Part shown: piece after piece, positions 2,659 to 10,186 of the stretch
Position numbering within the stretch: position 1 is the first letter of the stretch
Layout of the letters: each line of letters opens with the position of its first letter
Assembly: GCF_016463295.1 (NCBI RefSeq)
Contig: NZ_JAEMRO010000019.1
Location: 1 to 34,230 of the forward strand
Length of the DNA: 34,230 bases
Direction of reading: 5' to 3'
Origin: Brevundimonas sp.
Lineage (GTDB): Bacteria > Pseudomonadota > Alphaproteobacteria > Caulobacterales > Caulobacteraceae
Translations under genes and position numbers: made by a program
Notes under the pieces: model-generated
Seen by the model: only the letters and a program-made list of their open reading frames with translations
Told to the model about the DNA's origin: nothing
The model's database searches: none

Positions 2659-3114
2659 TCAGGCCCCGTTGTGGCGGCCGAAGACGGTCGCCTCTCCGGC
2701 CCGGTTGATCAGCAGGGTGACATAGGGCTGGCGACCTGCCGCTTCCATGCCGGGCGATCCGGCGGGCATGCCGGGCGCGGCCAGCGCCACGGCCGTCGGC
2801 CGCTCGCGCAGCAGGCGGTCGACATCTGCAGCGGGCACATGGCCTTCGATGGCATAGGCGCCGACCACGGCGGTGTGGCATCCGGCATAGCGGTCCGGCA
2901 CGCCGTAGCGAGCCCGAATCGGGGAGAGGTCCTCGCGCTCGACGACATCAACGGTCCAGCCCGCGCCGCGCATATGGGTCACCCAGCCGTCGCAGCATCC
3001 GCACCACGGGGTCTTGTAGGCCGTCATGCGCCGCACCTGCGCCACCGCCGTGCCGGTCGAGGCAAGAGCGATAGCGCCGCCCAGCAACAGGCGACGGTTC
3101 ATTCGGACTGTCAT
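2659..3114 (-). CDS. copG: CopG-like DUF411 periplasmic copper protein
   Basis: This 151-residue exported protein has an N-terminal signal (RRLLLGGAIALAS, cleavage near AVAQ26). The mature part carries the DUF411 signature: PWCGCC (Cys38, Cys40, Cys41), CHT at 79-81, YAIEGHVPA, and PGMPAGSPGMEA near the C-terminus. DUF411 proteins such as Pseudomonas CopG bind copper through a Cys cluster and are linked to copper resistance. The ATG at 3114 shares one base with the upstream copC stop (TGATG), so translation is probably coupled. A TTG one codon earlier is less likely; an internal ATG at 3102 is another option. It is the last gene of copA-copB-copC-copG. Confidence 0.85.
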   Translation of the reverse strand: MTVRMNRRLLLGGAIALASTGTAVAQVRRMTAYKTPWCGCCDGWVTHMRGAGWTVDVVEREDLSPIRARYGVPDRYAGCHTAVVGAYAIEGHVPAADVDRLLRERPTAVALAAPGMPAGSPGMEAAGRQPYVTLLINRAGEATVFGRHNGA

Positions 3115-3539
3115 CAATGGACCATGAAACGAACGACGCCCGCCATCTCGTGACCGTCCGCGCCTTCAGCGGTCCAGTTCAGGACGTAGTTGCCGGGCGC
3201 CAGGGTCGGCAGATCGGCGGACACGCGCGTCGTCGCAGCGGCGGCCGCGACGGGGACTTCAACGGCGGCCTGACCCTCGGCGGTCACAGTGACGGCCTTT
3301 AGCGTCATTGCGTGTGGGAAGGTCGCGGTGAACCAGTCGGGAGAGCCGTTGGTCATCGCGCCATCCGCCGGGCTGGTGACGACGCCGTGCGCGGCATTAT
3401 CGGCAGGCGCGGCCTGGCTATGACCTGCGTGCGCGTCCTGGCCCTCATTTCCGCAGCAGCAACAAGCGGCTGCGGCCTGGGCCAATGTGGGGACCACCAG
3501 GGCCAAGGTCATGGCGACGGCGGGGATGATCTTGCGCAT
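3114..3539 (-). CDS. copC: CopC-domain periplasmic copper-binding protein with Cys4 N-terminus
   Basis: This 141-residue protein has a signal peptide ending near AQA22. An unusual run of four Cys (26-29) follows, then a His-rich linker (AHAGH), and from about residue 49 a CopC beta-sandwich: AHGVVTSPADGA at its start and the EGADGHEMAGVVRF copper-site region near the end. CopC proteins bind copper in the periplasm and hand it to CopD or the oxidase. The start was chosen at ATG 3539, which has AGGAG 8 nt upstream. It lies 11 bp after copB and its stop overlaps the copG-like start. The island has a second, more standard copC at 9295-9648. Confidence 0.85.
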   Translation of the reverse strand: MRKIIPAVAMTLALVVPTLAQAAAACCCCGNEGQDAHAGHSQAAPADNAAHGVVTSPADGAMTNGSPDWFTATFPHAMTLKAVTVTAEGQAAVEVPVAAAAATTRVSADLPTLAPGNYVLNWTAEGADGHEMAGVVRFMVH

Positions 3540-3550
3540 GGACAACTCTC

Positions 3551-4627
3551 CTAGAACCAGGCCTTCAGGCCGATGACAAAACGGGTGTGTTCGGGCTCGC
3601 CGCCTGCGGCGCGCGTGAAGTCGGCGGTGTCGCCGAGTTCGCGGCTCCATTCGATCCCGACATAGGGCGCAAACTCCTTGGCGATTTCATAGCGCAGGCG
3701 CAGACCGGCCTCGATGTGTGTCAGACCCGATCCCAGCCCCAGTTCGGGGATGTCAGCAGCCGAGGCCTCGACCTCGACGCGCGGTTGAAGGATTAGCTTC
3801 TGAGTGATCCGCTGATCGTATTCGGCCTCGACCCGCGCCGTCAGGTCGCCTTCGCTGGACACAAAGGCTGCGGCGTCGACCTCCCACCAGTAGGGGGCCA
3901 GCCCCTGAAGTCCGAGCACCAGATGGGTCGGATTCTCGTCGCTCTCGCCGAAGTCCTGACGCACGCCCGCCTGCACGTCCCAGAAGGGCGAGATCGCGCG
4001 GCTGTAAAGCGCCTGAACCTCGCCTTCGATCTCGCCGTCGAAGTCGCCCTCGGCCTCGGACTTCCACCATAGGCGGTTGATGTCGCCGCCGGTCCAGCCC
4101 GCAACGTCCCAGGTCCAGCTCTCTTCGCCATCGCCGAAGCCGACTTCCAGGCGATCGACGATGACGGCGGTGGCGCGCACGTCGCCATTCTCGCGCCTCA
4201 AGCCTTCGCGGGCTCCGGTCATCCGGTCCGCGCCCCAGATCGCGTCGGCTGCATGGGCCGGGCCGGACAGGGCGGCGGGCGGCAAGGGCGGTTGCCGAGG
4301 CCGGCCCGCGTCATCGGCGCTGGTCGGGACGTCGGGCGGCCCGCTCGCCGCGTGGCCGCCCATGTCGTGACCTGCGTGGGGATCGCCCTGGGCGGGCATC
4401 GTATGACCGGCGTGAGGATCAGCGGCCTGAGACGGCGCGCCCATGTCGTGCCCGGCGTGCGGGTCCGCGCTCTGCGCCAACGGGGGCATGGCGTGTCCCG
4501 CATGCGGGTCGGCCGCAGGAGCCTGAGCCGACTGCTGCGGGACCGCCGGATGATGGCTGTGATCCTGTGCGGCGGCGGCTCCTGCGGCCAGCATCAGGGG
4601 GACCAGCGCGGTCATCATCCGGATCAT
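3551..4627 (-). CDS. copB: Copper resistance protein B (outer-membrane)
   Basis: This 358-residue protein has a signal peptide (MIRMMTALVPLMLAAG). A His/Met-rich segment (about residues 20-100) carries four copies of a DPHAGHxM motif. The CopB beta-barrel domain begins near residue 125 (AADAIWGADRM) and ends in a C-terminal aromatic residue (GLKAWF), as outer-membrane proteins usually do. The family cooperates with the CopA oxidase in periplasmic copper resistance. The start is ATG 4627, whose ATGA overlaps the copA stop by 4 bp. A longer open frame upstream overlaps copA and is an artefact. Confidence 0.9.
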   Translation of the reverse strand: MIRMMTALVPLMLAAGAAAAQDHSHHPAVPQQSAQAPAADPHAGHAMPPLAQSADPHAGHDMGAPSQAADPHAGHTMPAQGDPHAGHDMGGHAASGPPDVPTSADDAGRPRQPPLPPAALSGPAHAADAIWGADRMTGAREGLRRENGDVRATAVIVDRLEVGFGDGEESWTWDVAGWTGGDINRLWWKSEAEGDFDGEIEGEVQALYSRAISPFWDVQAGVRQDFGESDENPTHLVLGLQGLAPYWWEVDAAAFVSSEGDLTARVEAEYDQRITQKLILQPRVEVEASAADIPELGLGSGLTHIEAGLRLRYEIAKEFAPYVGIEWSRELGDTADFTRAAGGEPEHTRFVIGLKAWF

Positions 4628-6429
4628 GAGGCCGCTCCATCCAGAGGGCGGACGGTGACGACGTTGAACATCCCCGCATGCATGTGCATCAGCATGTGGC
4701 AGTGGAAGGCCCAGTCGCCGGGCGCATCGGCCGTCAGGTCGAAGGTCACCTTGGACCCCGGTGCGACATTGACCGTGTGCTTCAACGGCTGATGCCCAGC
4801 GGGTCCGCCCGTCACCAGCTCGAAGAAGTGGCCGTGCAGGTGGATGGGGTGGGCCATCATGGTGTCGTTGACCAGGGTCACTCGCACCCGCTCGTCCCGC
4901 TCGAAGCGGATCGGCTCGACGATCTCGGAGAATTTGCGTCCGTCGAACCCCCACATGAACCGTTCCATGTTTCCGGTCAGGTGGATTTCCAGCGCGCGGG
5001 AGGGCGGCCTCTGGTCTTTGTTGGCGGCCAGCGAAACAAGGTCCGTGTAGACCAGCACCCGGTGGGGCGCGTCCTCCAGTCCCATGGGCCGTTCGCTCAG
5101 GCGGTTGGCCGGGTCCGATGAAATCATGTCGACCCCGACGCCGACGGCCATGTCGGCGGGCGCGTTGTCCGGGTTGCGCATGTCGTGATCCATGCTGCCG
5201 TGACCCATGGCGGCGTGATCCATCGGCGCGGAGGCGGGGGCTTCGTGTCCCATGGCAGAATGATCCACGCCGCCGTGTCCCATCGCCGAATGGTCCATCC
5301 CGGCCATCCCGCCCATGCCCATGTCGCGCATCGTCAGGGTCGGCACCTCGCGCAGCGGAGGAACCTCTGCCGTCATCCCCAGACGGGGCGCCAGCGTCGC
5401 CCGCGCCATGCCGGAGCGATCCACCGACTCGGCGACCAGGGTGTAGGCGCGGTCCTCCGTCGGTCGGACGACCACGTCATAGGTCTCGGCCACGGAAATC
5501 TGGAACTCGTCGGTCTCGACGGGTCGCACGTTCTCGCCGTCGGCATTGACCACCGTCATCTGCAGGCCCGGAATGCGCACGTTGAAGATCGACATGGCCG
5601 AGGCGTTGATGACCCTCAGCCGCACCCGCTCGCCGGGCCGGAACAGGCCGGTCCAGTTCTCGGCGGGCCCATGCCCGTTGACCAGATAAGTGTAGGTCGT
5701 TCCGTTGACGTCGGCGATGTCGCGGGGGTCCATCCGCATCTGACCCCACATCTGGCGGTCGGCGAGCGACATGCCGTCCTCACCGGAGATCAGGCCCGAC
5801 AGGGTCGTGCGCGACTGGTTGAAATAGCCGGGGCTCTTCTTCAGCCGGTCCAGAATCTCGTGGGGATGCAGGAAGCTCCAGTCCGACAGGACGATCACGT
5901 GCTCGCGGTCATAAGCCACCGGATCGGCACCGGCCGGGTCGATGATCAGCGGCCCGTAGTGGCCCATCGCCTCCTGAAGATTGGAATGGCTGTGATACCA
6001 GAAGGTGCCCGACTGAATGACCGGGAACTCGTAGTCGAAGGTCTCACCGGGCCTGATGCCGGGAAAGCTGACGCCCGGCACGCCGTCCATGTGAAAGGGA
6101 AGCAGCACGCCATGCCAGTGGATAGAGGTGTCCTCGTCCAGGGTGTTGGTCACCGACAGCCGAGCCGTCTCGCCTTCGCGCAGGCGGATCAGCGGCGCAG
6201 GCAGGGTCCCGTTGACCGTGATGGCGTGGCCGGAGCGACCGCCGACCGTGAACGGCGAATGGCCGACGCTGAGCCGAACGTTCGGCCCTTGAAGGGTCGG
6301 CAGATCGGCGCGCAACCCCGTTGATCCGCTCTGGGCCCAGGCGGGCAGAAGTCCTTGCGCGGCGAGCAGCCCCGTGCCGCCCGCGAAGCCGCGCAGCAGG
6401 GCGCGGCGGTCTGTCTGGATCGATCTCAT
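4624..6429 (-). CDS. copA: CopA-type periplasmic multicopper oxidase
   Basis: This 601-residue protein starts with a Tat signal (DRRALLRGF, residues 7-15). All four copper-binding motifs are present: HWH at 104-106, WYHSH at 144-148, HPIHLHGHFF at about 527-536 and HCHMLMHMH at about 576-584. A Met/His-rich insert around residues 375-420, with repeated DHSAMGH/DHAAMGH units, is typical of copper-resistance CopA and probably binds extra Cu(I). It oxidises Cu(I) in the periplasm. The gene heads copA-copB-copC-copG, with a 4-bp overlap into copB. An ECF-type promoter lies 31 bp before the start, so it can be transcribed separately from the sigma-factor gene 78 bp upstream. Confidence 0.95.
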   Translation of the reverse strand: MRSIQTDRRALLRGFAGGTGLLAAQGLLPAWAQSGSTGLRADLPTLQGPNVRLSVGHSPFTVGGRSGHAITVNGTLPAPLIRLREGETARLSVTNTLDEDTSIHWHGVLLPFHMDGVPGVSFPGIRPGETFDYEFPVIQSGTFWYHSHSNLQEAMGHYGPLIIDPAGADPVAYDREHVIVLSDWSFLHPHEILDRLKKSPGYFNQSRTTLSGLISGEDGMSLADRQMWGQMRMDPRDIADVNGTTYTYLVNGHGPAENWTGLFRPGERVRLRVINASAMSIFNVRIPGLQMTVVNADGENVRPVETDEFQISVAETYDVVVRPTEDRAYTLVAESVDRSGMARATLAPRLGMTAEVPPLREVPTLTMRDMGMGGMAGMDHSAMGHGGVDHSAMGHEAPASAPMDHAAMGHGSMDHDMRNPDNAPADMAVGVGVDMISSDPANRLSERPMGLEDAPHRVLVYTDLVSLAANKDQRPPSRALEIHLTGNMERFMWGFDGRKFSEIVEPIRFERDERVRVTLVNDTMMAHPIHLHGHFFELVTGGPAGHQPLKHTVNVAPGSKVTFDLTADAPGDWAFHCHMLMHMHAGMFNVVTVRPLDGAAS

Positions 6430-6460: not shown

Positions 6461-6489
6461 TTACGCCAGAACCGCGCGCGCCCCTCGCG
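6461..6489 (-). promoter_or_regulatory. Predicted ECF promoter of copABCG
   Basis: On the minus strand, CGCGAGGGG (6489-6481), 13 nt, then GGCGTAA (6467-6461). The same two boxes at the same spacing occur upstream of the YXH operon and the SnoaL-like gene, and a weaker version precedes copC2-copD. The -10-like GGCGTAA ends 31 bp before the copA ATG. Confidence 0.65.
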
Positions 6490-6507
6490 GCGGCTGGTCG
6501 CAGGGGC

Positions 6508-7110
6508 TTATCCGGATGGGCCGAGGCGATCCAGCAAGGCCTTGCGGGCGCGGGCGATCCGCAGCTCGACCGCCTTGGACGACAGGCGCAGTATCTGGCC
6601 GATCTCGGCATGGGAGCGGGCTTCCAGAACCGCGAGGAGCAGCGGCGCACGTTGACTGTCGGGCAGTTCACCCAAGGCGCGGGTCAGCCGCTCGACCCGT
6701 CGCCGGTCGTCCATCCGGTCCTCGGCGCCGGGCTCCGGATCGCCGACCGCCATGGCTTCGGGCGCGTCGAGGCCCATGACACCCCGAACCAGCCGACGCA
6801 CGCGGCGACGTCGGCTCCAGTCGCGGCATTTGTTCAGGGCGATGGTGCGCAGCCAGGCGCCGAACGGTCGGCCGGGATCGTATCGCCGGATCGACACCCA
6901 GGCAGCGGCGTAGGTCTCCTGGGTCAGGTCCAGCGCCTCGTCCGGATCACCGACATAGCGGGTGGTGAAGCGATGCAGGTCGCCCTTCGTCGCCGTCATC
7001 AGGCGCGAGAAGGCCGCCCGGTCTCCCTGGGCGGCAAGGGCTTCATCGGTGTCGCCGGCCCCCACGCTCGCGTCAGTCGGCGTCGGCGCGCAGCGTCTCG
7101 ACCACGGCAC
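6508..7110 (-). CDS. ECF sigma factor (CnrH-like)
   Basis: This protein of about 200 residues has sigma region 2 (AFSRLMTATKGDLHRFTTRY, then DPDEALDLTQETYAAAW and FGAWLRTIALNKCRDWSRR) and sigma region 4 (LGELPDSQRAPLLLAVLEARSHAEIGQIL, then KAVELRIARARKALLDRL). It is the third gene of a Y-X-H arrangement, after a small membrane protein and a periplasmic metal sensor, the order of cnrYXH in Cupriavidus. The likely start is GTG 7110, 38 bp inside the sensor gene, with GGAAG upstream; GTG 7065 is an alternative. It probably recognises GAGGG-N16-CGTA promoters in this island. Confidence 0.87.
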   Translation of the reverse strand: MPWSRRCAPTPTDASVGAGDTDEALAAQGDRAAFSRLMTATKGDLHRFTTRYVGDPDEALDLTQETYAAAWVSIRRYDPGRPFGAWLRTIALNKCRDWSRRRRVRRLVRGVMGLDAPEAMAVGDPEPGAEDRMDDRRRVERLTRALGELPDSQRAPLLLAVLEARSHAEIGQILRLSSKAVELRIARARKALLDRLGPSG

Positions 7111-7510
7111 GATCGAATTCTTCCGCCTGTTCGGGCGTCAGCACCGCGCGCATCTCGAACACATGGCGGATGGTCGCCATCTGGAGTTCGCCCATGGCAC
7201 CGTGGAAATGCTCTACGGCGGCCTGCACCTCGGGCGTGTCGCCCCGGCTCTGGGCGATGGCGGCGGATAGTTCCTGGTTCGCCGCGCGCACTTCGGCTTC
7301 CAACGGGCCGCGCTGCGCAGCGAAAGCGGCCTCGACCTGGTCCAGCCGACGGTCCTGGTCCGGGGTCAGGTCCAGCCGCTCATGCACGATATGATGCAGA
7401 TCGGCGGGCTGATCCTGTTGCGCCGACCAGGTCATCGCCCCCCAGGCGGCGGTGGCTCCCACGACAGCGGCCAGGACAGCGGTGACGAGCGTGGACTTCA
7501 GGCCGCTCAT
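7073..7510 (-). CDS. Periplasmic heavy-metal sensor (CnrX-like)
   Basis: This 145-residue protein has one N-terminal membrane anchor (about residues 8-26) and a helical periplasmic domain. The CnrX ligand set appears with unchanged spacing: His39, His43, Glu60, His116 and Met120, each exactly three less than CnrX His42, His46, Glu63, His119 and Met123 as I recall them. It should bind a transition metal and release the sigma factor from the small anti-sigma partner. Its ATG overlaps the upstream stop by 4 bp (ATGA), and its end overlaps the likely sigma-factor start. Its position beside copper genes, rather than nickel/cobalt efflux genes, is unusual. Confidence 0.85.
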   Translation of the reverse strand: MSGLKSTLVTAVLAAVVGATAAWGAMTWSAQQDQPADLHHIVHERLDLTPDQDRRLDQVEAAFAAQRGPLEAEVRAANQELSAAIAQSRGDTPEVQAAVEHFHGAMGELQMATIRHVFEMRAVLTPEQAEEFDRAVVETLRADAD

Positions 7511-7782
7511 CCCAGGACGCTCCGCATATCCAGCGGCGCCGCCGCCATACGGGGGCTGAATACGGTGAGTTCGCTTCGACCCTGGTCGACCGCCGGGGCG
7601 GACACGCCGCCGGCGACGCCGCCGATGCCCGCCGCAACGCACAGGGCCGCGACCCGCAGCTTCCGTTCGCGCGACCGTGCCTGCGTCTGCGCGACCCGGT
7701 TCCAGACGCCATCCTCCAGGCCGTCCAGAGCCTCGGCGCGCGACGATGGCGTTTGTGCGATCAAAGTATCCAGGTCTGTCAT
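7507..7782 (-). CDS. Small membrane anti-sigma factor (CnrY-like)
   Basis: This 91-residue protein has a short cytoplasmic N-terminus (residues 1-42, with LEDGVWNRV resembling a sigma-binding helix), one membrane segment (about 43-60) and a short periplasmic tail. Size, topology and place as first gene before the sensor and sigma factor match CnrY-type anti-sigma factors; sequence similarity in such proteins is always low. The start is ATG 7782, with GGAG 9 nt upstream; ATG 7797 is possible. Its own ECF-like promoter ends 28 bp before the start, implying positive autoregulation. Confidence 0.7.
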   Translation of the reverse strand: MTDLDTLIAQTPSSRAEALDGLEDGVWNRVAQTQARSRERKLRVAALCVAAGIGGVAGGVSAPAVDQGRSELTVFSPRMAAAPLDMRSVLG

Positions 7783-7810
7783 ACCGATCGTCTCCATGCG
7801 TCTCGCCCCT

Positions 7811-7839
7811 CTACGCACCGGTCCGATAGCCCCCTCGCG
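7811..7839 (-). promoter_or_regulatory. Predicted ECF promoter of the YXH operon (autoregulatory)
   Basis: On the minus strand, CGCGAGGGG (7839-7831), 13 nt, then TGCGTAG (7817-7811). The -35 box is half of the perfect palindrome CCCCTCGCGAGGGG at 7831-7844, whose other half serves the divergent promoter. Confidence 0.65.
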
Positions 7840-7864
7840 AGGGGCCGGTTGGTCTTCGGCGTAA
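7836..7864 (+). promoter_or_regulatory. Predicted ECF promoter of the SnoaL-like gene
   Basis: On the plus strand, CGCGAGGGG (7836-7844), 13 nt, then GGCGTAA (7858-7864). This leaves a leader of roughly 35 nt with AAGGAG before the ATG at 7905. It overlaps the -35 box of the divergent YXH promoter, so the two polymerases would compete for or share this site. Confidence 0.65.
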
Positions 7865-7904
7865 ACGGAGCATAGTCCTGATCCAGACTTTCAAGGAGCC
7901 ATCG

Positions 7905-8384
7905 ATGAAGCGCCTGATTCTCGCCGCTGTTCTGGCCGTTTCGGCATCGACCGCATTGGCCCATGAGCCGGCTCTCGCGCCTGCGTCCGCACAGGTCGTC
8001 AATGAAGCTGCGGCTCCGGCGATCGCAGTCGTGGACGCCTTTCATGCCGCCCTGAGTTCCGGTGAGAGTGAGGCGGTCCTCGCCCTCCTCACTGGAGACG
8101 TCATGGTGTTGGAAGAAGGCGGCGTCGAGCGGTCGCGCGACGAATACGCCGGCCATCACCTACCCGCCGACATGGCCTATGCCGCCGCCGCCGAGGCCGA
8201 GATCACCCGCCGCGTGGCCTGGGTGGAGGGCGACATCGCCTGGGTTCTGACAGAGGGCCGCACCAGTGGCGCGTTCAATGGTCGGCCCGTTGATCGTCTG
8301 ACCGCCGAGACCATGATCCTGCACCGCCAGGCCGAGGGCTGGCGCATCCGCCACATCCACTGGTCGTCGCGCGCGCCGGCCTGA
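7905..8384 (+). CDS. Exported SnoaL/NTF2-like protein
   Basis: This 159-residue protein has a clear signal peptide (MKRLILAAVLAVSASTALA). It is followed by an NTF2/SnoaL-like fold pattern: VVDAFHAALSSGESEAVLALL near residues 43-63, a middle strand region, and a C-terminal RQAEGWRIRHIHWSSR. Such exported domains appear in copper and metal gene clusters, but their function is not established; ligand binding or a small-molecule role is possible. AAGGAG lies about 7 nt before the ATG. It is divergent from the YXH operon, and its ECF-like promoter suggests membership in the same metal regulon. It ends 3 bp from the convergent copD. Confidence 0.75.
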   Translation: MKRLILAAVLAVSASTALAHEPALAPASAQVVNEAAAPAIAVVDAFHAALSSGESEAVLALLTGDVMVLEEGGVERSRDEYAGHHLPADMAYAAAAEAEITRRVAWVEGDIAWVLTEGRTSGAFNGRPVDRLTAETMILHRQAEGWRIRHIHWSSRAPA

Positions 8385-8387
8385 GCC

Positions 8388-9293
8388 TCACATCGAGGCG
8401 GGCGGCATCTGCACGCCCATCGCCGCGACCAATCCCAGCAGGGCAAACCCCGCCAGCATCTCCAGACCTATGCTGGTCCGCAGTCGCCGCACCGCGTCGT
8501 CGGCGTCGGTCTGCGCCTCGACGGCGCGCGACAGCGCGGGCGTCAGGTTGAACCGGTTGTGCGCCGCCAGTCCCACCATCACGGCGAACAGAACCAGCTT
8601 TGCGATCAGCAAAAGCCCCCAGGTTGAACTTGAAATATGGACGAGACCCTCCGCACCAATCAGGAAGGCCGCATTGATCAGACCGGTTATGACAAGGACG
8701 GCGACCGTGACCGTCCCGATCGACGCGAACCCTGCCAAGGACCGCGCCGTTGCGCCGACCTCTCTCGTAGAAGGGCGGATCAGCAGCAGGCAAAAGCCGG
8801 CCAGTGCGCCGATCCAGACGCAGGCGGCAAGCGCGTGGGCTATGTCGGCGGCCAGATGCAACAGGCCGAGGGAGCCTTCGCTGGCGGCACCATGGCCGCT
8901 CCAGGCGAAACTGGCGACGGCCCCAGCAAAGGCGAGGATCGCGATCAACTCTCCTGACTTACGACGCCACGCGACCAGGGTGGCGACTCCCAGCATAGCC
9001 AGTCCCGCCCGCACCACATGGGCAATGCCGAGGCTTGTGGACTGGACGACATAGCCGAGGGCTGCCGGGTCCACGCCTGCCGTCCAGCCCCCCGCCATCA
9101 TCGCCGTCTGGGCTAAAAGACCGCCCATGGCCGTGACCGCAAGGACGAGGCCAGCGATGACAGCCGCGCGTCTGACTGATGGCGGACCGGGTTCGCTCAA
9201 GCCAAAGCCGTGGAACAGCGGCAGGCCGAGAGCCAAGACCGCCGCAGCAAACTGAAGCCAGCGAAGACCGACGACAGTCAGATCGATCGGCAC
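8388..9293 (-). CDS. copD: CopD inner-membrane copper protein
   Basis: This 301-residue protein has about eight hydrophobic helices across its whole length. Conserved features include WSGHGAASEGSLGLLHLAADIAHA (about residues 130-155) and VWIGALAGF, typical of CopD/PcoD, which moves copper across the inner membrane together with CopC. The start is GTG 9293, one base after the copC stop, so the two genes are translationally linked. The copC-copD pair has its own ECF-like promoter and is separated from copABCG by the YXH set and the SnoaL-like gene. Confidence 0.88.
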   Translation of the reverse strand: MPIDLTVVGLRWLQFAAAVLALGLPLFHGFGLSEPGPPSVRRAAVIAGLVLAVTAMGGLLAQTAMMAGGWTAGVDPAALGYVVQSTSLGIAHVVRAGLAMLGVATLVAWRRKSGELIAILAFAGAVASFAWSGHGAASEGSLGLLHLAADIAHALAACVWIGALAGFCLLLIRPSTREVGATARSLAGFASIGTVTVAVLVITGLINAAFLIGAEGLVHISSSTWGLLLIAKLVLFAVMVGLAAHNRFNLTPALSRAVEAQTDADDAVRRLRTSIGLEMLAGFALLGLVAAMGVQMPPASM

Positions 9294-9294
9294 G

Positions 9295-9648
9295 TCAGCG
9301 GACGGTGAAGCTATAGGTCCCGGTCATCCGATGGCCGTCGGCCGCCGCGATAGCCCAGGTCACTCGATAGACCCCGGCCGTCAGCGGCGCGCCAAACGTG
9401 CCACCCAGAGTCTTGCCGTCTTCTGACACCGTCTTGCTCATGCCGACCACTCGCCCCCGACTGTCCTCGACCTCAACGGTCGAAAAAGGCGCGGCGAACC
9501 GCTCGCTGAAGGTCAGGCTGATTGTCCGGGGAGCGGTCACGGTGGCACCATTGCCGGGGGTAGCGGACACCAGTCGGGCATGAGCCAGCGCCGGAGATGC
9601 GCTGAGAATCATGGCCGAGGCGACTGCAACGGGTAGAATCCGGTTCAT
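9295..9648 (-). CDS. copC: CopC periplasmic copper chaperone (second copy)
   Basis: This 117-residue protein has a signal peptide ending in ALA just before HARLVSATPGNGATV, so the mature protein begins with the copper-binding His of canonical CopC. The C-terminal AAADGHRMTGTYSFTV supplies the D-x-H part of the site. Cys is absent, in contrast to the Cys4-bearing copC at 3114-3539. ATG 9648 has AAGGAG 7 nt upstream; an in-frame upstream codon is rejected for lack of a binding site. It is the first gene of copC-copD and probably delivers copper to CopD. Confidence 0.9.
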   Translation of the reverse strand: MNRILPVAVASAMILSASPALAHARLVSATPGNGATVTAPRTISLTFSERFAAPFSTVEVEDSRGRVVGMSKTVSEDGKTLGGTFGAPLTAGVYRVTWAIAAADGHRMTGTYSFTVR

Positions 9649-9672
9649 GACAAACTCCTTCAATGCCCTCTC

Positions 9673-9701
9673 CTACGCCTGCCGCTTTGTCATCCCTCAT
9701 A
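9673..9701 (-). promoter_or_regulatory. Predicted ECF promoter of copCD (weaker -35)
   Basis: On the minus strand, TATGAGGGA (9701-9693), 13 nt, then GGCGTAG (9679-9673). It shares the GAGGG core and the full -10-like box with the other three sites. The -10-like box ends 24 bp before the copC ATG. Confidence 0.5.
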
Positions 9702-9766: not shown

Positions 9767-10186
9767 TCAGGTGTGAGGGGCGGCCATTGCCAACGCCGCT
9801 ATAAGCCACCTTCGGGCTCGCGGGTTACAGTCCCGGGACGTCAGGAAGCGGACCATAGCTTGAGCCTGCTCGACCGAGCCCAAAATGACGTAGACGGCCA
9901 CGCTCCAATCGACGGCACCCGCCGGGACACCGTATTCGTGCGTGACAGCTTCGAACGGCACCTCGTCCTGGTTCACATACCGCATGTGGGCGATCAGATC
10001 GGCGTGAATCTGCCCACCCAACCAGGCTGCCCCGGCCTCGGTCGGACAGCCGTCGATCCTGATCACGGCGGCAACTTCTCCTCCGTGCAGCGATCGGGTC
10101 CCAACGAACACTTCCTGTCCGCCCGGTTTGACCTGCGAGCCCTGGAAGTGCTGGCGAAGACCATGGCCCAGCGGGAGATACGTCAT
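9767..10186 (-). CDS. Unknown protein (139 aa)
   Basis: I do not recognise this protein. It is soluble with no signal peptide, has two Cys, and shows an alpha/beta composition (EVAAVIRIDGCP, WSVAVYVILGSVEQAQAMVRFL). The second phrase ends like a small ferredoxin-fold or ACT-type strand-helix unit, but that is weak. GAGG lies about 9 nt before ATG 10186. It follows a 68-aa gene by 28 bp on the same strand, suggesting a two-gene unit. A plus-strand frame of similar length overlaps it and is judged the shadow because of its unnatural composition. Confidence 0.5.
   Translation of the reverse strand: MTYLPLGHGLRQHFQGSQVKPGGQEVFVGTRSLHGGEVAAVIRIDGCPTEAGAAWLGGQIHADLIAHMRYVNQDEVPFEAVTHEYGVPAGAVDWSVAVYVILGSVEQAQAMVRFLTSRDCNPRARRWLIAALAMAAPHT

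Follow-up and report, generated by a model that had tools for sequence, protein, structure and literature searches.

How are the copper genes of this Brevundimonas sp. switched on, and does the sigma factor encoded among them do it? The question is raised by a stretch of 34,230 nucleotides (positions 1 to 34,230 of contig NZ_JAEMRO010000019.1, assembly GCF_016463295.1; hereafter the window). An earlier note proposed that one motif, GAGGGR-N13-KGCGTAR, stands there before four copper-block transcripts and serves as the promoter of a CnrH-like extracytoplasmic function (ECF) sigma factor, here called H. Site geometry, conservation, the trend with sigma-gene number, the kinship of H with CnrH and the mapped cnr starts all support this proposal. 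We consider it very probable that H recognises the motif as its promoter and that the whole copper block, H included, is under the joint control of this one metal-responsive sigma factor. All four copies are present as exact matches on the strands claimed, and the distance of 16 bp counted from GAGGG to CGTA is correct:

6461..6486, minus strand: predicted promoter boxes before copA (GAGGG as -35, GCGTA as -10); start expected at about 6453
7811..7836, minus strand: predicted -35 and -10 boxes of the Y-X-H operon; transcript expected to start at about 7803
7839..7864, plus strand: predicted -35 and -10 boxes of the SnoaL-like gene; transcript expected to start at about 7872
9673..9698, minus strand: predicted promoter boxes before copC2-copD; start expected at about 9665
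7831..7844, no strand: palindrome CCCCTCGCGAGGGG, read from the sequence, in which the -35 boxes of the two divergent sites stand back to back with 2 nt between them

GAGGG and GCGTA occur in all four sites. The hallmark of ECF promoters, AAC in the -35 and CGT in the -10 element (PMC8103513), is thus present in its CGT part and absent in its AAC part; according to the accessible part of the same source, it no longer defines ECF promoters in later classifications. Some details of the proposal had to be revised. Three of the four sites do share CGCGAGGGG; a single palindrome, CCCCTCGCGAGGGG, accounts for two of them, one on each strand. The -35 box before copC2, described as weaker, has an intact GAGGG core, and the sixth base is variable across the family. 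The flanking letters R, K and R of the motif are particular to the four sites; the family core is GAGGG-N15-GCGTA.

Against the four exact matches in the window, 100 dinucleotide shuffles averaged 0.02 and never gave four, in a test that is partly circular since the pattern was taken from the same sites. Independent tests were therefore made on the genome and on related loci. With up to two mismatches allowed, the window holds ten sites against a mean of 6.3 expected, and 11 of the 100 shuffles were as high, which is no clear excess. In the genome (2,740,828 bases, 152 contigs, 95.6% complete, the window being one contig, C116), exact matches occur only at the four window sites. Nine one-mismatch sites lie elsewhere, and the reversed control with up to one mismatch gives 16. 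The relaxed core RAGGG-N15-GCGTA has eight matches, four of them in the window and four outside, against ten for its reversed control, so there is no sign of more sites in the genome; a wider regulon was rejected for lack of evidence. In line with the earlier note, which reported no copy before the czc operon, none was found in the 400 bases upstream of it (best 25-mer, three mismatches). Sites before the CDF gene, the open reading frame (ORF) at 9767-10186, the MerR-like gene and the ORF at 1409-2239 were likewise rejected, the best 25-mers in the 300-400 bases searched having two to three mismatches.

Conservation was followed in loci found with the sigma protein as query against species genomes; of 327 loci the best 80, many titled Brevundimonas, closely related and 1.17 Mb in total, were used. 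The exact motif occurs 61 times in them against once for its reversed control, and GAGGG-N16-CGTA 293 times against 6. Other spacings between 10 and 23 gave 0-10 matches (controls 0-13). In the 79 loci that offered sufficient sequence, Y has an upstream site, as in the window, in 78 cases; a divergent site on the opposite strand is present in 65, and one directly behind the sigma gene in 73. Thinned at 80% identity, these come down to 33 (Y), 24 (divergent) and 28 (post-sigma) distinct sites. The searched letters are here invariant by construction and the unforced positions alone are informative: G precedes CGTA in 31/33, 22/24 and 27/28 of the thinned sites, respectively. Of the 64 loci with both sites, 36 have 2 nt and 21 have 4 nt between the back-to-back -35 boxes.

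In eight close relatives aligned to the window, the boxes of copA and Y are kept where alignable, the copA -10 box reading ACGTA instead of GCGTA in L016, L017 and L103 (our locus numbers). The site of the SnoaL-like gene is altered in L017 and L103, and its spacer is one base shorter in L018. That of copC2 is kept in L014, L015 and L021 and altered in L017, several other relatives not being comparable. On this comparison, the sites of copA and Y are better conserved than those of the SnoaL-like gene and copC2. L015 is Brevundimonas variabilis DSM 4737, whose sigma factor is 100% identical to H.

Downstream genes were assigned in 94 loci (L014-L093, L103-L106, L112-L121) with the pattern [GA]AGGG-N16-CGTA, which yielded 370 sites in 92 of them. 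Of these 92 loci, 79 have a site ahead of a copA-like gene and 50 ahead of a copC-like gene, at least one of the two being so placed in 84. The Sphingomonadales plasmid loci L115, L117-L121, L123 and L124 have Y-X-H and N16 sites, most beside copA-copB and copC-copD; L117 has no annotated cop gene and L121 no site directly before Y. A concrete promoter and regulon are thus proposed for a copper-linked ECF system whose sigma factor is present in 87 of 121 sampled genomes of the genus, and which extends to plasmids of Sphingomonadales.

The genes concerned are as follows:

6508..7110, minus strand: H, CnrH-like ECF sigma factor (Sigma70_r2 and r4_2; CnrH 4cxf, 1.7e-26; start codon putative)
7073..7510, minus strand: X, CnrX-like periplasmic metal sensor with H103 and M106 (Metal_resist PF13801; CnrX 3zg1, 2.7e-22; residues; fold)
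7507..7782, minus strand: Y, presumed anti-sigma from its position and small size, with a single probable membrane helix (ATG at 7782 chosen by eye)
4624..6429, minus strand: copA, multicopper oxidase (TIGR01480, 4e-254)
3551..4627, minus strand: copB (PF05275, 1.3e-86)
3114..3650, minus strand: copC1-like ORF, start uncertain, presumed part of the copA transcript (NF033814 CopC, 3.6e-07, below cut-off)
7905..8384, plus strand: SnoaL-like gene (PF13474, 3.1e-11)
9295..9648, minus strand: copC2 (NF033814, 5.9e-30)
8388..9293, minus strand: copD (NF033808, 2.3e-67)

CnrH is the best solved relative of H (39.7% identity), and the nearest solved proteins to X are CnrX and NccX. Y, X and H are overlapping ORFs in this order, both in the window and in annotated plasmid loci, and by gene layout would form one operon. 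Y resembles CnrY in place, size and a likely membrane helix. It has no Pfam or NCBIfam match; family NF033790 matches CnrY and the protein of L122, not Y, and profile comparison by hhalign found no relation to CnrY (probability 0.25%).

The kinship with CnrH extends to its promoters. On pMOL28 of Cupriavidus metallidurans CH34, AAGGG-N17-CGTA (53252-53277) precedes cnrY and GAGGG-N17-CGTA (54626-54651) precedes cnrC. Transcript starts are given at 53286 for cnrY and 54660 for cnrC in the accessible part of PMC9045368, which places CGTA at -12 to -9 from both. Older primer extension, as cited there, had placed the starts 24 and 25 bases ahead of the genes, under CnrH control. The second cnr/ncc-like locus, L122, also has N17 at both places. 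The four cnr/ncc promoters of L116 and L122 have N17, whereas most copper-linked sites have N16. N17 occurs as well in the copper-linked loci L133, L136 and L141, and in L112 and L113, so spacer length is no clean divide between copper and nickel systems.

That H binds the boxes, that Y and X inhibit it, that copper is the signal and how far the operons extend, we infer. Y and X would hold H inactive at the membrane until a periplasmic metal, most likely copper, binds X and H is released. Free H would then direct RNA polymerase to GAGGG and GCGTA before copA-copB-copC1, Y-X-H itself, the SnoaL-like gene and copC2-copD. Two polymerases with footprints of the usual size would hardly fit together on -35 boxes 2 nt apart, so the Y and SnoaL-gene promoters may fire in turn.

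A rival reading concerns the metal that X senses. The promoters and the sigma factor could be as proposed while X senses mainly nickel or cobalt, or several metals, the copper genes then not being specifically copper-induced. The ligand positions of CnrX (H39, H43, E60, H116 and M120 in X) are kept in nearly every aligned row, and CnrX itself was crystallised, according to structure titles, with Ni, Co, Zn and Cu. X differs, however, in two further residues. H103 and M106 are found in 95 of 96 X rows from loci other than cnr/ncc, the remaining row being truncated there; adjacency of copper genes is shown for some of these 96. Of 321 homologs of X, 120 were listed, H103 occurring in 119 and M106 in all 120. 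Glutamate and alanine take these places in both cnr/ncc loci and in 64 of 65 CnrX homologs (one truncated); both sets of homologs are protein listings without gene neighbourhoods. In a predicted model of X (mean predicted local distance difference test score 80, first Met absent), H103, M106, H116 and M120 lie on one helix (92-121).

A draw of 398 genomes from the phylum gave 20 loci, of which at least seven (L128, L129, L134, L137-L140) repeat or nearly repeat earlier ones. Judged by eye, 18 of them have His and Met, 16 of these with copA or copC matched at a distance of up to about 1.5 kb and no nickel pump seen alongside; the two Glu and Ala loci have neither a copA nor a copC match. This gene content, together with the His/Met pair, makes a sensor tuned chiefly to nickel or cobalt, or to several metals, unlikely. 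We hypothesise that the pair binds copper; it may mark ancestry only, and we treat it as a candidate copper signature. Evenly poised, in our judgement, is the broader proposal that a widespread alphaproteobacterial branch of the CnrYXH kind turned to copper by means of a His/Met pair on an intact nickel/cobalt sensor, with a Y that is unrelated or diverged beyond recognition, and with GAGGG-N16-CGTA spread over several copper transcripts. If this is true, the metal choice of the CnrX sensor fold may rest on two residues. The split between His/Met and Glu/Ala makes metal choice by CnrX-type sensors directly testable. The Caulobacteraceae locus L126 has an X of CnrX type (Glu/Ala by eye), no such motif and no copA or copC match nearby.

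Motif number was compared with sigma-gene number in the 121 genus genomes. At E-values up to 1e-20, 34 of them have no such sigma gene, 61 have one, 21 two and 5 three. The mean motif count per genome rises in this order from 3.26 to 6.51, 12.24 and 15.00, that of the control pattern being 2.38, 3.49, 3.43 and 4.00. With sigma number, the motif count has a Spearman correlation of 0.75 and the control count one of 0.25, in a test that ignores shared ancestry and with an unrelated repeat beginning GAGGGCTTGAG, which inflates motif counts in some Brevundimonas, left in. This multi-copy repeat ends in GCGTA and mimics the motif in several genomes (G289, G295, G313 and others).

The genomes with two or three such sigma genes raise the prospect that another cellular ECF sigma factor also uses the boxes, H not being their sole driver. 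We find this very improbable: the source genome has a single match to H at the same threshold, and the five more distant ECF sigmas examined have no motif nearby. A sigma tree was built from 63 of 103 sigmas, near-identical and short rows being left out, with a midpoint root and a long CnrH branch that calls for a long-branch warning. All 58 sigmas with an X gene nearby, CnrH included, fall in one group (100/100), and these five, of the same ECF class but with no X, lie outside it and have no GAGGG-N16-CGTA site in their 3.5-kb loci. Very improbable, too, is a reading in which a distinct copper activator or repressor, not a sigma factor, occupies the boxes: most known copper operons are under two-component or MerR control and a MerR-like gene lies at 2242-2655, but we rejected a copper activator box, since the two boxes are unlike, oriented towards the genes at one fixed spacing and at the start distance published for C. 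metallidurans, and their number tracks the sigma gene.

Several points weigh against recognition of the motif by a copper-sensing H, beginning with the shared ancestry ignored in the co-occurrence test and the close relatedness of the 80 loci. Plasmids of Caulobacter (L112, L113) and Asticcacaulis (L114) with Y-X-H near copper genes have no GAGGG-N16 site aimed at Y. Table 4 of PMC9045368 lists 53286 (cnrY) under RpoD-dependent and 54660 (cnrC) under non-RpoD-dependent promoters, so that only the cnrC start is free of this doubt. X retains the nickel/cobalt ligands, so copper as signal is not assured. We likewise infer where transcription starts in the source organism, that it depends on H and which metal induces it.

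Among known systems, CnrYXH/NccYXH of C. metallidurans CH34, which responds to nickel and cobalt, shares with the copper block the Y-X-H order, homologous H and X, the ligand positions of X and, at cnrY and cnrC, the same boxes. It controls a nickel pump of the resistance-nodulation-division type (cnrCBA/nccCBA), whereas the sites described here precede copA, Y, the SnoaL-like gene and copC2 and none lies before czc. CnrX has Glu/Ala where X has His/Met, and CnrY belongs to NF033790, while Y has no detectable similarity to CnrY. Since neither CnrY family membership nor a nickel-pump target was found, the copper block was not filed as a CnrYXH member; it would work in the manner of CnrYXH and seems to be a variant of that kind linked to copper, which would tie a copper-linked ECF system to a structurally known switch. 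Among the openly licensed papers listed, none could be recognised as reporting a CnrYXH-type copper system from alphaproteobacteria. Copper is the metal of CorE and CorE2 of Myxococcus xanthus. These metal-responsive ECF sigmas (ECF238) are regulated by a C-terminal extension (PMC8103513) and have no Y-X pair. SigF-NrsF of Caulobacter crescentus, from the same bacterial family, has a copper-induced ECF regulon, with a different anti-sigma and different members; in the part of PMC8224329 available, pcoAB is not ascribed to SigF. SigAb of Acinetobacter baumannii is copper-responsive and autoregulating, but has the boxes GTCAAC and CGTT, the anti-sigmas AabA/AabB and a small direct regulon (PMC12153292, in part). 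The accessible part of Rhodius et al. (PMC3817407) describes a model for 29 ECF groups, with one ECF20 sigma tested.

Other genes also follow the 370 sites. A DUF2231-like protein is preceded by a site in 29 loci, an acyltransferase-like protein in 26 and a SnoaL-like protein in 7. The first two often follow the divergent site (e.g. L025, L043, L057, L080, L093) and are possible further members of the regulon. No gene was assigned to 105 of the 370 sites, 35 of which have an ORF with the size and place of Y. Two records, titled Pseudanabaena and Bordetella (L042, L058), carry a Brevundimonas-like locus and are perhaps misassigned contigs. In L057, the sigma gene is followed by a small lipoprotein-like ORF with a His/Met end and by a copC-like ORF, and copA lies on the opposite strand with a site of its own.

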